In this document: positions 8,764 through 15,847 of the stretch, in pieces
Layout of the letters: each line of letters starts with the position of its first letter
Position numbering within the stretch: position 1 is the first letter of the stretch
Assembly (NCBI GenBank): GCA_004565275.1
Contig: SDOX01000158.1
Location: forward strand, 366,680 to 430,679
Reading direction: 5' to 3'
DNA: 64,000 nucleotides
Origin: Nannochloropsis salina CCMP1776
Lineage: Eukaryota; Sar; Eustigmatophyceae; Eustigmatales; Monodopsidaceae
Made by a program: the position numbers and the translations under genes
The notes under the pieces: model-generated
The model's input: the letters and a program-made list of their open reading frames with translations, nothing else
The model's database searches: none
What the model was told of the DNA's origin: nothing

Positions 8764-9780
8764 TCAACCTTCCACATTGATACTATTTTTTCTCGTGTGA
8801 GGTCTCTGAAGGCCGTTCACACCCCTCCACTTCCGCGCGAAATCCTCCTCTTCCCCGCCTTCTTTCTCTCCCTCCTCCTCCCCCTCCCCCTCCTTCGATC
8901 CAGGCTCACCTTCCCACTGCTCAGGGCCCCTCTCTTTTCGCCCCCTCTTTTCTTTCTCATTCTCCCGTTCAAAAAAGCGCGCAGGTAGCGTGCTTTCCAT
9001 CTGCTCCCACAGTTCTTCCTCCTCCTCCTCTTCATCTCCGTCCCTTTGTTCTCCCATCGCACCCTCCCTCGTCTTTTTTCGCCTAGCCACGTGCACATAA
9101 TCTTCCGTTCCTCCCTCCTCTTCCACCACCACTCCTTCCCCCATGATTTCGCGGTAGGTATACTCAACCCTCTCTCGATGGGCTCTCCCGCCTCCCTTGC
9201 CGTCTCCTCTCCCGCCTGGCCCTACCTCCCATTCCACGTGAAAGACCTCCTCCACCGTCCTTTCCTCCTCCCACAGGGACTCCGCTTTCCCCTCAAGGTC
9301 CACTGTAATATACTCGACCATCCGGATATGCTGGGTGAGCTCCCGCTTTTGCCAACGGGGATGTTGGGGCAGGGTGGGCGGGCTGGAGGGGGAGGGAGAC
9401 ATGGGGACAAGGCTGCAGGATGTCGTGAAGGCGGCGCCGGAAGGGGACTCATGCGGACAGGCATGAGAAACTACATGCAGAGTTGGAAAGGGAGAGGTTG
9501 GATGGGTCTGGGGTGGTGCTGGAGCGCCGGGGGAGGAAGGAGGAGGGCCCCTCTCGCAGGGAAAGGGAGGGTCCGGCAAGGTGGGAGGCCGTGGGGGAGG
9601 AGGAGGGCAAGGAGGAGGATTGGATTGGGGGGGAAGGACACCACGTTCGAGAAAAGTGACAAGGTCTTCCAACTGAATACTATGCTCTTTCTGGACGTTT
9701 CCGAAAGAGAAGAGGGGAACAAGCCATGGAGGTTCCCCTTCTTCGACGGCCAGGCCTAATGAGGCGACAATGTCCGCCAT
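8764..9780 (-). CDS. Hypothetical acidic protein
   Basis: An open frame of 338 codons starts at an ATG in a strong context (ACCATGG) at 9780. The frame stays open upstream to about 9993, but a polypyrimidine tract ending in TTTTGCAG at about 9964 looks like a splice acceptor, so an upstream exon and an earlier start (for example at 9936, which would add a basic, possibly mitochondrial, leader) are possible. The protein begins MADIVASLGLAVEEGEPP and has a short helical segment (IQLEDLVTFLERGVLP). A Pro-rich stretch (about residues 55-120) follows, then a moderately conserved-looking block (MVEYITVDLEGKAESL, then GTEDYVHVARRKK). It ends in a long Glu/Lys/Gly-rich tail. I do not recognise the family, and no enzyme motif or membrane span is visible. 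It converges with the tubulin acetyltransferase gene. Confidence 0.55.
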   Translation of the reverse strand: MADIVASLGLAVEEGEPPWLVPLFSFGNVQKEHSIQLEDLVTFLERGVLPPQSNPPPCPPPPPRPPTLPDPPFPCERGPPPSSPGAPAPPQTHPTSPFPTLHVVSHACPHESPSGAAFTTSCSLVPMSPSPSSPPTLPQHPRWQKRELTQHIRMVEYITVDLEGKAESLWEEERTVEEVFHVEWEVGPGGRGDGKGGGRAHRERVEYTYREIMGEGVVVEEEGGTEDYVHVARRKKTREGAMGEQRDGDEEEEEEELWEQMESTLPARFFERENEKEKRGRKERGPEQWEGEPGSKEGEGEEEGEKEGGEEEDFARKWRGVNGLQRPHTRKNSINVEG

Positions 9781-10428
9781 GGTGAGGATTTTTTCCTTGC
9801 TTGTGTCACATTTGTTTTTGGCAAGAGAGATGGGCGGACAGTAGGAGTTAAAAAAAGATCTAAAGGTTTGGTGCGGTGCTCGACACGCAGTGAGGAGAAT
9901 TAAACGTTTTCGTAGGCGGCGGAGAACTGCGGAAGACATGACCCAGGGGAAGAGGCCAAGAATCTGCAAAAGGAGGTAGGAATTAGTCTCCACACAACAC
10001 AGAGCGTGTAAATGCCATCATTTGGCGGTCTATATGAGATGAAAGAGAATATCGCAGACATACCGATTTGCGAGCAGCTTTAAAAGTTGGGGCCCTTTCA
10101 ATTGGCATTTCTAATCTCTCGGCAACGAACAATATCGGAAAAAAATGACTACTGACATATTTGACACAATTCGTTTCGGCAAGGTAGTATCAATGGCAGT
10201 GATACGCACGTCGCGACGTAGCATACTTTCGTAAAAACTACGCGCTTGGCTTTTGGCCCTCAAATAAAACGTGACGTCACGGCGGGGGCAAGCGTCTGCC
10301 TTTCCAATGACTTTGCATCTTGGCACGCCGAGAACCGCACTCAGGGCCGCGCACTCCGTAGAAATCAGCCAACCCTTGTCTCACAACACAGGAATAGGGT
10401 GAGGAGGGACAGAGACGGTGCCGCGGCC
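9781..10428. promoter_or_regulatory. Head-to-head intergenic region
   Basis: These 648 bases separate the divergent starts of the acidic hypothetical protein and the PH/adaptin-ear gene. The left 200 bases may hold a 5' exon of the minus-strand gene (acceptor-like TTTTGCAG at about 9964). The rest is AT-richer than the genes and shows no convincing coding frame. Confidence 0.4.
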
Positions 10429-13400
10429 ATGGGCAATCAATTGTCTGCGAAGATCCCGTCCTCGGTAAGCCTCGATCCTGCTTCATCTTTTCTTCAGTCG
10501 AGTCCTCTTCACTTAATCCCTCCCCGTCCCCATAAAACTCAGAAGAGATCCCTGGATGGAGACACCTCGTCCGGCACCCACCTTGACAGACACCAACAAC
10601 TTAAGGGGGAGCAGCATGCCAACCCGTCTGACGTGGAAAGCGAGGACAACATCCTCCATTTCGCACAATCCTTCCCCGCGCGTCTCGTCGATGCTGCCAC
10701 CGTAGATGCCGCCCTCCTTCCCTCCCCGACTCAAACCTCTTCGCCTGGACAGCCCTCCTCCGCAGTGTCCTTCATGCCCCCGATGTCTCCACGCGCTTCT
10801 GTGCCCCCCCGCGGCAAATTTTTCGGCCGGCCGGTGACTGCGAATCAAGCGGCCATCCGGGAGGGCAATAACACGGAAAACTATGGGATGCCGGTCAGAA
10901 TGACGATGGTCGACGACCGGTTGCTTCTGGAACCGGAAGAGCTTATCGTGGGTCGTCCAGAAGCCCAGGCGTTGGTGGCGACAACCTTTGCCAATGTGAG
11001 GAGGGCGGGGGGGATGGAGGGAGGGAGGGAGGGAGGGAAGGAAGGAAGGAAGGAGGGAGGGAGGGAGGGCCTCCCGGTCGTCGTGATTTCAAAGGTAGAG
11101 AATGTTTGAGACGAGCGTAATCCTCTCATTCACAACGCTTTGACGGCTTCCCACACATGTTTCCCTGCTGTCATGTCCTGCAGTTGAGTGAGGTGTGCTG
11201 GGACCACGCGCACTCCGCCGTGCGGCTCTCGTTGGAGGGCCGTGGGGAGGAAGGGAAGGAGAGAGGGAGGGAGGGCGAGATCCAAGAAGGAGTAGAGAGA
11301 GGAAGCGGAGGGGGCGAGAGGCAGCTTTTCATCCTGATCTTCCCGAACTCTTTGGAGGTGGAACAAGACTTAAAACTCCGCCTCACAGGTAGTAGCCAGG
11401 GCCTTCTCGGTCTCTCGCCCTCCCACTCCTTCCCTCCTACCTGTTGCTCTTCCTAACACCGCGCTTTCTCGTCCCGTCGTCCATCGTGCGATCTCTTGGC
11501 GGACCCCTGTCCCTTGCCCACTGGCTTCCTGCGGCCAGCCTTCCTTCCCTCCCTCCCTCCCTCCCTCCCTCCCTCCCTCCCTCCCTCCCTCCTTCCCTCT
11601 TTTCCTCCTTCCTTCATTCATTCCTCCGCCCCTTCAATCCTTCATGTCTTGATGTAAAATCCATCACAGCCCCTGGCCGCTCTCTCTCTTTCCCCATTCC
11701 CTCCTACCTTTACCTTACACGCCCTCCCTACGTCACCCTCGCCGTTACCTTAACAGCGCTCCGTCGACCGGGGCGGTCTCCGCACCTGAAGAAGCAGGTC
11801 CCCTTCCAGTACATCGGCATGTTCGCCGGTACGTCTGTTGCTTCCTCTTCCTTTCAATTCTTCCCTCCTCCCCTCCTTCTCGCCCTCCCTCTACATTGGC
11901 CTCTCCGCCTCCAGCCCCCCTCCCTATGTTCCCTCCTTTACTCTCTTGCCCCCCCATCCCTCCCTCCCCCTCCTTTCCTCTCTTCGTTTCCCCTACTCTT
12001 CGTCCCTCCCACACGCCCTTCGTCTAAGCCAAGCCCGGCCGTCCGACCTACCCGCCCTGCCTCCCTCCCTCCCTCCCGCCCTCCTTCCCTCCCTCCCTTT
12101 CTCCCTCCCTCCCTCAGGTCCCACCAAACCCAAGCCCTTCCAACGCAAGCGCGCGAATCTTTCCTGCCTCAAGGCTGGGACCCTCCCTTCCCTTGAGAGG
12201 ATGAGGGAATTGGCCGTGGCTCAGGTGCAGGGAGCCTCCGTCCCGGTCGCGAGGGCTGCCTCCCGGCGCCTCTCGCTCGGTCCGTCCTCCTCCCTTCCCT
12301 CCCTCCCTCCCTCCCTCCCTCCCTCCCTCCCTTGCTCCCTTCCTTCCTTTCTCCCCTCCTTCCCTTCCCTCTTCCTGCCTACCCTCCTCCTCTTTCTCCT
12401 TCGCTTCCACTCTATTGCTTTACAAACTTCCCTCCCTCCCTCCCTCCCTCCCTCCCTCCCTCCCTCCCCCAGCCTTGCAGCACATCCATACAGGCAGCGT
12501 CTGCTTTCCCGTGCTTAGAATCAAAGATGGAGACGCTATATTCACTTCTGCCTCCCGCCCTCCTTCTTTCCCCTCTGGCAGGGCTGGCTATTAAAGAAGG
12601 GCGGCTTCAATCGCAAGTGGCTCAAACGCTACTTCGTGCTCTATAAAACGTGCATGGGCCACATCCTCTGCTACTACTCCGACGTCCACGAAACCGCCCT
12701 CTTCGCCCATCACCCTCAGGTCGTGCCCTCCCCCCGCCTCCCTCCCGCCCTCCATTTCTCCCTCCCTCCCACCCCTTCCTTCGCCGTGATCGTCCGTCGC
12801 ATTATCAATCGTCGCCTTTTCTAAAGCAACGTCGAGTTGTCTGTCCATGCCTCACCCGCCCATCTCACCCCCCCTCCCTCCCTCCCTCCCTTTCCAGGAA
12901 CGCAACGTGATCGACTGCTGCCGTGTCGAGTTACTTCGGCCCGTCTCGAGTACGCCAGACACGCCGTCCTGCGCCTTCGACGTCCAGTCCATTGAGCGGA
13001 CATGGACGGTCTGCGCGGCAAACGAGGTCGGGAAGGAGGGAGGGCGGGAGACGGGGGGGAGGGCGGGGGAGAGGAACGGAGAAGCAAGAGGGGAGGAGGA
13101 AAAATCAGAGGATGCCGACGTGCCGGCCCATCTCCAGGGCCCTTTGCCTAATATTTGCTACGCCCTGTTCTCACACGACGCCTCCCTCCCTCCCTCCCTC
13201 CCTTCCCTCCCTCCCTCCCTTCCTCCCTCCCTCCCTCCAGACGGACCTTCAGCAGTGGCTCCTCCTCCTTGCCTCGGCCATCGACATGGACGTGGCCGTT
13301 CTCCCCGACGACGAAGTCTCCTTCCTGGTCAAGCCCCGGTAGGCGTCTCCAACCGCCTTCGTCTCCCTCCCTCCCTCCCTCCCGACCACCCTCGCCGCCT

Positions 13401-15847
13401 CTCTCTCGCTCTCTCTGTCCCTCTCTTCCTCTCGCTTTCCCAAACGTGGCCAGTGCCAGACCTTCTTCTTTGTGTATGGCAGTCTCTTTTATTTCTCTCC
13501 TCGTACGCTGCCCTCGCTTTCTAAGCTGCCCACGCCTTCTTCAGCTTGCATTAAACTTGCATTCCCAAAATCCAATTACAGCGCTGAATGAACGTTGATC
13601 ACATGTCCCTAACCTCCCTCCCTCCCTCCCTCCCTCCCTTTCTCCCTCAGAGTCGACCCGAGCATGAAGCTCTACCTAGATGAATACAGCACCATTTTGC
13701 GCGTCCACGCCTGGGGCGTCAATGTCGACATGATGGAAGGTAGACCCATACCCCTCCCTCCCTCCCTCCCTCGTTCCCTCCCTCGCTCCTTCCTTCCCTC
13801 CCTCCCTCACTCTTCCCCTGTATCCTTCTCTCCCTCCCAATCCTGACTCGTGTCAACGCTTTCTTGCTTCCTATCTTTTTCCTGCAGGGGAGAAGCGTCA
13901 CACGGTGTGTTTCTGGCCGTACACCGACTTGTTTCGGTGGACCATCCTGTCGCAGAAGGTAAGCAATGGAGGAGGGAGGGGTGGAGGGAGGGGTGGAGGG
14001 AGGGAAGGAAGGAGGGGAGCGGGGAGCGGAGCGTGTGGCATCCGGTCCTGGTGCGTTCCGCCTGGCTTGTAACCCCCCTCACGCCCGCGTTGTCTCTCTC
14101 CCTCTCTCTCTTTCTCTCCCCTTCACTCCTACCTTTCCTCTCCCTGCCTCTTCCCTCTTCCTCCCTCTTTCGCTTCCTCCTTCCCTTTCTCCACCTCACA
14201 GGGCAAGATTGCCCTTCAACTCACTGTATTCAAAGAGGATTACAGCGCCAAGAGTGACTACATATTCCGGACACGGAAAGCCTCTCAAATCGCTCGCACG
14301 CTCGAGTTTTACATCGAAAAATACATGGCATGGGCCCACATGCGGCTTGAACTGGAAGATGGTGGGGAGGGCGAGAGGGAGGGAGGGAGGAAGGGAGGGA
14401 GGGAGAAAGGGAGGGCGAGCGGAAGGGGGGAGGGGTCAGCAAGGCAGAAAGGAACATTTCTCTCCATGCACCCGATGTACCGGCAACCCCATCATCTCCG
14501 CTGAGCCTCTCCGTCTCACCCCTCTCCCTCCCCTCTCACTCCCACCATCTCTCCAGTCCCCCCCTCCCCCCTGCACGGCGACGTCCACACCCAGACCGGG
14601 CTGCACAAAGGACCGTCCTACCCCCCCCCCACGGAGATGCACCATCCACGACACGCCCGGCGCCATTCCGGGGGCTCCGAGCCTGCGTCCGCCCCCAGCG
14701 GCCACGGCACAGGCGGTGGGGGGACGGAGGGGGGGACGGAGGAGGACACCGGGGGGGACGCGGGGGTCTGGGCATCGGATGACGAGGGCGGGAACGATGA
14801 CCGCCAGGAGGATTTCTTGGAACTGGACGCGGCCTGCCACGCTTTCCTCCACGACGACGACAAGCCCCAGCCCAGTCCCTCCCCTTCCCCTTCCCCCCTT
14901 CCCCCCCCTCCCCCCAACCCCCTGCGCTCTCCCACACCACCTCAGCCACCTATGTGGCGAAGGGCATCCCCCCCTCCCTCCTTCCCTCCATGGTCCAGTG
15001 GTCGTGCACGCTGGCGGCCTCCGGGCAGGGGCTTCTCTTCCAGTACCCCTCCCTTCTGCAGGTCCTCCTCCGTCACAACTACCAGGGGCATCAAGGCACT
15101 TTGCTGATCGTCTACAAGAACGTCTCCCCCCTTCCCTCCTCCCCGACCTCCGCTGCCCCCTCCCTTCAATTTCGTACATTCCAAGCTAGTCCGTCCTCCA
15201 CCGTCCCCGGACTGCTCCTTCAAGCGTCTCCGCTCCAAGTGTCGGTCTTGGGACCGGGAGAAGAAGCCTCGCAGACGGTGCGAGTGGTGTGTCTGGAGCC
15301 CTTTGATGCCTCGGCGGGGGGCATCGAGGTCCTGGTGGAGTTTGGGACGGAAGAGGAGGAGGACGGGACGAATGCGATCCCTGTGCGGTATAGCTTACCT
15401 TTGCCCTTGCCTGTCTCGGTCCTGCACTTTGTGTGGGGCTTGTCCCTGCGTAAAGAGGACTTTCTAGCCCAGTGGGAGGCGATCACGGTTCCCCAAGTTC
15501 AAGATACCTTCTTGCCGAAGGAGGAGGATGGGAAAGGGGAGGGACTGGAAATGGGACCCTTGATTCGTCTGTTGACGAAACAATTCCATCTGCAAACGGT
15601 GCCGGAACTGTGTCAACGGTCGCGGCAGGCACAGACTTGGACGTTTGCGGGGAGCTTGGAGACGGGGTCCCTGTCCCCCCACGGCAAGCAGTTGCGCGTC
15701 CTGGTTCTGGTCCGACTGGAGCAGTACGAGGAAGGAGTAGAGCGGTGTGCACGAGGTCGGAAGGGCTATCGCCTGACCGTGCGTTCTGAGCACCCGGCGT
15801 GTGCCATGGGCGTCTTCAAAGCAATCAAACTTCAATTGGGCGCGTGA
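10429..15847 (+). CDS. PH domain / PTB-like / alpha-adaptin appendage protein with N-myristoylation motif
   Basis: Thirteen exons keep phase and give 982 residues: 10429-10995, 11184-11388, 11757-11828, 12118-12279, 12473-12510, 12582-12719, 12898-13026, 13241-13338, 13651-13739, 13888-13958, 14202-14361, 14557-14874 and 14946-15847. It starts MGNQLSAK, a fitting N-myristoylation signal (G2, S6). Residues about 349-470 are a PH domain (GWLLKKGGFNRKWLKRYFVLYK, ending TDLQQWLLLLASAID). About 471-577 look like a PTB/FERM-F3 fold (ILRVHAWGVNVDM, KIALQLTVFKED, ASQIARTLEFYIEK). After an acidic, Pro-rich linker comes an alpha-adaptin ear from about 684: the sandwich part (LLIVYKNVSP, LGPGEEASQTVRVVC) and the platform part (KEDFLAQWEAI, YRLTVRSEHPACAMGVFKAI). 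No adaptin trunk is present. The likely role is a membrane-bound endocytic or sorting scaffold that recruits the partners AP-2 normally binds; this is inference. The small exon at 12473-12510 is the least certain. Confidence 0.82.

Follow-up and report, generated by a model that had tools for sequence, protein, structure and literature searches.

Gene model and domain order

The window analysed here, a 64,000-nucleotide stretch of contig SDOX01000158.1 of Nannochloropsis salina CCMP1776, carries at positions 10429-15847 of its + strand a gene whose predicted product lacks the adaptin trunk and ends in an appendage (ear) of the AP-2 alpha type, with PH and PTB domains upstream in the same chain, an arrangement that is conserved across a family of relatives. 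A preliminary description had remarked on an unusual ear protein at this site, an observation confirmed here, and sequence, fold and relatives all support its reading of the domains (myristoylation motif, PH, PTB-like and alpha ear, without a trunk). To our knowledge, the alpha ear has been described only as part of AP-2.

Splice signals and reading frames guided the manual construction of the gene model, which comprises 13 exons that end in a TGA codon and encode 978 amino acids (Table 1). All 12 introns are of the GT-AG type, 71-368 bases in length and CCCT-rich; the frame is kept throughout, and the joined exons are free of stops until the last codon. The start codon, ATG at 10429, is the first ATG in a frame that is open back to 10222.

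Table 1. Exons of the modelled gene, and the intron at which a domain of the relatives is missing (window positions)
Feature	Position	Strand	Remark
Exon 1: MGNQLS myristoylation motif and N-terminal stretch, then the beginning of a domain read as PH-like	10429..10995	+	
Exon 2: remainder of N-terminal domain (WDHAHSAVR ... NSLEVEQDLK)	11184..11388	+	
Exon 3: conserved YIGMFAGPTKPKPFQRKRANLS segment, beginning	11757..11828	+	
Exon 4: conserved YIGMFAGPTKPKPFQRKRANLS segment, remainder	12118..12279	+	
Exon 5 as spliced	12473..12498	+	sole phase-compatible donor found by hand
Intron 5 (model), 83 bases; site where the relatives' FERM-F3-like domain is missing	12499..12581	+	
Exon 6: PH domain, first part	12582..12719	+	
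Exon 7: PH domain, second part	12898..13026	+	
Exon 8: PH end and PTB-like start	13241..13338	+	
Exon 9: PTB-like domain	13651..13739	+	
Exon 10: PTB-like domain	13888..13958	+	
Exon 11: PTB-like domain, C-terminal part	14202..14361	+	
Exon 12: acidic linker; relaxed clathrin box FLELD, WASDDE stretch, no DPF	14557..14874	+	
Exon 13: AP-2 alpha-type appendage and stop codon	14946..15847	+	

A Pfam scan of the 978-residue model at E<=10 returned PH, PH_8 and IRS only, with PF00169 (PH) above its cut-off and PF02174 0.2 bits below; the Adaptin_N trunk (PF01602) was not found, nor were VHS and GAT domains. The PH-PTB tandem is thus present by Pfam in the window protein, and its fold match was checked on the relative P0001 only, in which the pair resembles Dok7 and IRS-1 (3ml4, E 1.8e-6; 1qqg, E 1.9e-5). 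The first domain of P0001 (~65-176) had no match of its own among the 50 fold rows listed, and is PH-like in our reading of its secondary structure.

An initial homology search at E<=10 returned 13 proteins. With a profile and a threshold of E<=1e-3 the number rose to 139, 120 of which were listed. Among these listed matches, PF00169 is combined with PF02883 and/or PF02296 in 95 of 120, whereas neither ear family was found in 25. The best match is P0001, at 35% over 689 columns and 37% over 292 against the window model; its contig exceeds its coding length by only ~300 bases. The possibility of two adjacent genes wrongly fused into one was weighed, and was rejected as highly improbable because PH and ear domains are combined in one predicted protein in those 95 of 120 listed relatives, and because the P0001 alignment spans both halves of the window model.

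The appendage and its binding sites

The last exon of the window gene matched no Pfam family at E<=10, PF02883 and PF02296 included, the ear lying below all cut-offs, and reached only E 0.011 with phmmer when searched alone. In relatives, P0001, P0003 and P0054 among others, both families lie above cut-off together with PF00169 in one chain, bearing out the expectation that the same domain order would recur. An ear profile of 10 rows, namely the window and nine relatives, returned 7 PDB matches at E<=0.01, all of them AP-2 alpha, with a best E of 1.5e-46. The alpha-ear fold is present, and AP-2 alpha is the closest of the appendages compared. Because the last exon alone is weak, the identification of the ear rests on family profile and fold, by which a mis-called ear was rejected.

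The review PMC5694535 describes a platform site of the alpha appendage, centred on W840, which binds DP[FW] and FXDXF, and gives the clathrin box as LPhiXPhi[DE]. Ear positions were numbered here on a 7ohi fragment, counted from its C-terminus; the only Trp of this fragment falls on 840. The other residues compared are those that we take to form the binding sites. Of 72 near-full trunkless ears, that of the window among them, 71 retain W840, 65 have R or K at 905, 65 retain E907, 62 R916 and 71 R920, and the window ear itself has W, R, E, R and R at these positions. The platform pocket is therefore largely kept in the family. Conversely, sandwich positions 740 and 782, which are F in 105 and Q in 109 of 116 AP-2 alphas, are mixed across the trunkless ears. 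Since the platform residues are mostly kept and 740 and 782 are changed, the DPF/FxDxF site looks, from the aligned residues, to be largely kept and the WxxF site of the sandwich to be relaxed.

The N-terminus of the window protein, MGNQLSA, fits the pattern G-x-x-x-[STAGCN], which we assume to mark myristoylation. With a conserved KPKPF at offset 140-210 taken as the sign of a plausible full N-terminus, 38 of the 120 fetched members qualify, and 22 of these 38 carry the motif at residue 1, as opposed to 1 of 120 AP-2 alphas.

Relatives, linkers and origin

Pfam scanning of 17 relatives revealed PH followed by ear in 13 and no ear in four, while 20 of the 120 fetched rows, some of which are fragments, lack an ear by our own ear profile. 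P0113 and P0115-P0117 look like an ear-less sub-type of the family; by Pfam, an N-terminally placed PDZ domain occurs in P0113, P0116 and P0117, not in P0115. Inspection by eye showed numerous DPF motifs and some NPF motifs in the terminal tails of the ear-less P0116 and P0117, as if these replaced the ear.

Motif content was examined in 66 linkers between PTB and ear, from the window and 65 of 66 relatives (P0060 was left out), and compared with 500 shuffles; the counts are not independent, the sequences being related. DP[FW] occurs 133 times (shuffle mean 6.0, maximum 13) and in 55 of the 66 linkers, and the strict clathrin box 35 times (mean 3.0, maximum 9) and in 34, such that the linkers are motif-rich in most relatives; W..[FW] is absent from them (mean 1.4). 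The hinges of AP-2 alphas, of which 104 of 116 were long enough, contain no DP[FW] (1.2 in shuffles) and 11 clathrin boxes (mean 4.0, maximum 12). In its linker, the window protein shares a WASDDE stretch (window 14769-14786) with P0001 and P0009.

These counts bear on the possibility that the protein is a DOK/IRS- or FRS2-like membrane signalling scaffold, with the ear serving merely as a peptide-binding tail and not mainly as a coat component. The match of the P0001 PH-PTB pair to Dok7 and IRS-1 and the myristoylation motif are in keeping with such a scaffold, but the enrichment of DPF and clathrin boxes, and equally the DPF/NPF tails of the two ear-less relatives, point to endocytosis, and we consider it very unlikely.

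Organism names are attached to five of the listed matches (P0008, P0009, P0014, P0054 and P0091), the organisms being Chrysophaeum taylorii, Pelagophyceae sp. CCMP2097, Pteridomonas danica, Triparma laevis and Tetraparma gracilis. Four of the five are ochrophytes by lineage look-up and the fifth is named Pelagophyceae; the layout is shared by relatives from several algal groups. Diatoms and oomycetes are not represented by name among the 120 listed family rows, whereas both occur among 120 listed AP-2 alphas, but absence from these groups is not established because the family candidates were limited by shared words. Nor was any row from the window's own kind recognised among the relatives, though P0121 is 99% identical to the AP-2 alpha of this genome; our guess is that introns may hide the gene from simple gene callers.

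A tree was calculated from 66 of 189 ears, comprising 33 of 72 trunkless and 33 of 117 AP-2 alpha ears. With the exception of the 7ohi fragment, the AP-2 alphas form a group (91/93) that excludes the trunkless ears, and the AP-2 alpha of this genome falls among them, alongside those of named oomycetes and ochrophytes; the window ear pairs with P0001 (100/99). Branches are long, and the trunkless ears require two changes instead of one because the only ear of solved structure, the 7ohi fragment, falls among them on a long branch. A single change is found in 19% of 200 bootstrap trees, and constraining the trunkless ears to one clade, which scores 0.41 higher, is not rejected (p-AU 0.53). A single origin of the trunkless ears would be the simplest reading.

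The AP-2 alpha gene of this genome lies on contig C86 (L012:1557-4748) as a single open frame with an Adaptin_N match of 382 bits and both ear domains; it is intronless, as opposed to the 12 introns of the window gene. Two further genomic sites matching PF02883 look, by eye, like AP-1 gamma and a beta adaptin. Triparma laevis f. longispina likewise encodes both an AP-2 alpha (P0218) and a trunkless protein (P0054), and the trunkless protein therefore exists next to AP-2 in both genomes. A search with P0001 revealed no second family copy in the genome of the window, nine of its 11 matches falling on the window gene and the other two being the ear of AP-2 alpha and a PH-like row of E 0.65. Elsewhere in the window, a minus-strand open frame of 409 amino acids at 8764-9993, with Pro/Glu/Gly-rich stretches, is probably low-complexity sequence rather than a gene.

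The presence of AP-2 alpha in both genomes also speaks for a regulator of AP-2, which would compete for or store DPF ligands, or the linker DPF motifs of which would occupy the ear of AP-2 or its own ear, as autoinhibition or in a self-linking network. In much of the family, one chain carries both DPF motifs and a pocket of the DPF type, which would suit such a role, but strict clathrin boxes in 34 of the 66 linkers suggest direct contact with the coat, and the window copy has no DPF with which to bind; on balance, a regulatory role appears somewhat unlikely.

The relatives carry a FERM-F3-like domain (P0001 ~247-496, including linker) that is missing from the window protein at intron 5. Among the first-look candidates, which alone were scored, nothing in this genome matched P0001 residues 247-496 at E<=10. 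Exon 5 shows weak homology to relatives that runs beyond the donor demanded by the frame, to 12516-12540 (VCFPVLR, ~12519-12540), and when the corresponding stretches of seven relatives were compared with the window by tblastn, three overlapped exon 5 (E 0.068, 0.19 and 4.3), the other rows being chance-like. At 12499-12581, either the F3-like domain has been lost and splicing re-routed, or the assembly has collapsed. The family could accordingly be real and the window copy decaying or mis-assembled, which is compatible with every other reading. The loss of the F3-like domain and of DPF, the unmatched P0001 segment, the homology past the donor and a divergent ear below all Pfam cut-offs are as expected of such a copy, but its twelve introns keep the frame without a premature stop, its PH domain is above cut-off and its platform residues are kept, and we regard decay or mis-assembly as unlikely.

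Proposed function and comparison with known systems

An ear set on a lipid- and peptide-binding front end, with the same layout in several algal groups, looks like an undescribed one-piece helper of the endocytic coat, and the protein is rather probably a one-chain, membrane-tethered endocytic coat adaptor. In such an adaptor, the N-terminal glycine would probably be myristoylated and the PH domain would help to keep the protein at the plasma membrane, while the PTB-like domain, together with the FERM-F3-like domain in relatives, would by its fold probably bind receptor tails or lipids. The flexible linker may contact clathrin through its clathrin-box motifs, and in relatives may offer DPF motifs to alpha ears, either those of AP-2 or its own; the ear would gather accessory proteins with DPF or FxDxF motifs through the conserved platform pocket. 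Lacking both this F3-like domain and any DPF motif, the window copy probably retains mainly the ear-based recruitment.

Several observations weigh against a coat adaptor. Within the 66 linkers, FxDxF (9; shuffle mean 1.7, maximum 7) and NPF (6; mean 1.7, maximum 7) are weak. The 978 residues of the window protein contain no DP[FW], FxDxF, Wxx[FW]x[DE] or NPF anywhere, and its single strict clathrin box, at residue 933, sits within the folded ear, the linker holding only the relaxed FLELD, with neither a strict box nor DPF. At 837 its ear has Leu; this position is variable in AP-2 alphas too, 104 of 116 having Met. Position 849, which is Glu in 114 of 116 AP-2 alphas as opposed to 36 of 72 trunkless ears, is a gap in the window ear, whose sandwich carries V at 740 and E at 782. 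By eye, the PH domain seems to lack the basic residues that we take to be the signature for 3-phosphoinositides. The myristoylation motif is absent from 16 of the 38 relatives, including P0054 of Triparma laevis, and the gene model itself is based on homology and splice signals.

A broader proposal, which we offer only tentatively, is that of a second alpha-ear system beside AP-2 in several ochrophyte lineages: a one-chain, membrane-anchored adaptor that would gather accessory proteins and clathrin by itself, with DPF motifs and ear linking copies to each other and to AP-2, that could start a coat independently of AP-2, and that may have arisen once, by the transfer of an alpha hinge and ear onto a PH-PTB scaffold. 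The preliminary description had envisaged recruitment of accessory proteins without AP-2; since an AP-2 alpha with trunk and ear is also present in this genome and in Triparma laevis, a role side by side with AP-2 is no less likely.

In endocytosis, recruitment runs mainly through the alpha ear as a hub, and a trunkless form conserved in algae would demonstrate that nature can separate this hub from the core. Such a form would also allow a direct test of whether placing an alpha ear at the membrane suffices to start a coat, and would provide a handle on endocytosis in algae, where the coat machinery has been little studied.

No description of this protein was found in the open-licence literature searched, which mostly leaves subscription journals outside, and a description elsewhere is possible. 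The available main text on TSET in algae, including stramenopiles (PMC12167817), contains no occurrence of 'appendage' or 'PH domain'. As far as that text goes, TSET resembles the present family in being adaptin-related trafficking machinery of the same broad algal group, but differs in being a multi-subunit complex.

With AP-2 alpha, the window protein shares the two-part ear with its platform residues; in the absence of a trunk, and hence of an AP core, and with a PH-PTB front end instead, it is not an AP-2 alpha subunit, and in the tree the stramenopile-type AP-2 alphas form a group to which the trunkless ears do not belong. The order of PH and IRS-type PTB domains is that of the IRS/DOK proteins, which act downstream of receptor kinases through a phosphotyrosine-rich effector tail, and the predicted lipid anchor resembles that of FRS2, which is myristoylated; where these proteins have a tyrosine-rich tail, the window protein ends in an adaptin ear. 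GGA proteins, which have VHS and GAT domains, combine a membrane module, a flexible clathrin-binding hinge and an adaptin-type ear in one chain. The window protein has no VHS or GAT domain and a different ear, and is not a member of the GGA family, but by analogy both would represent the transfer of a hinge-ear unit from a heterotetramer to a different membrane module, with a gamma ear in GGA and an alpha ear here.

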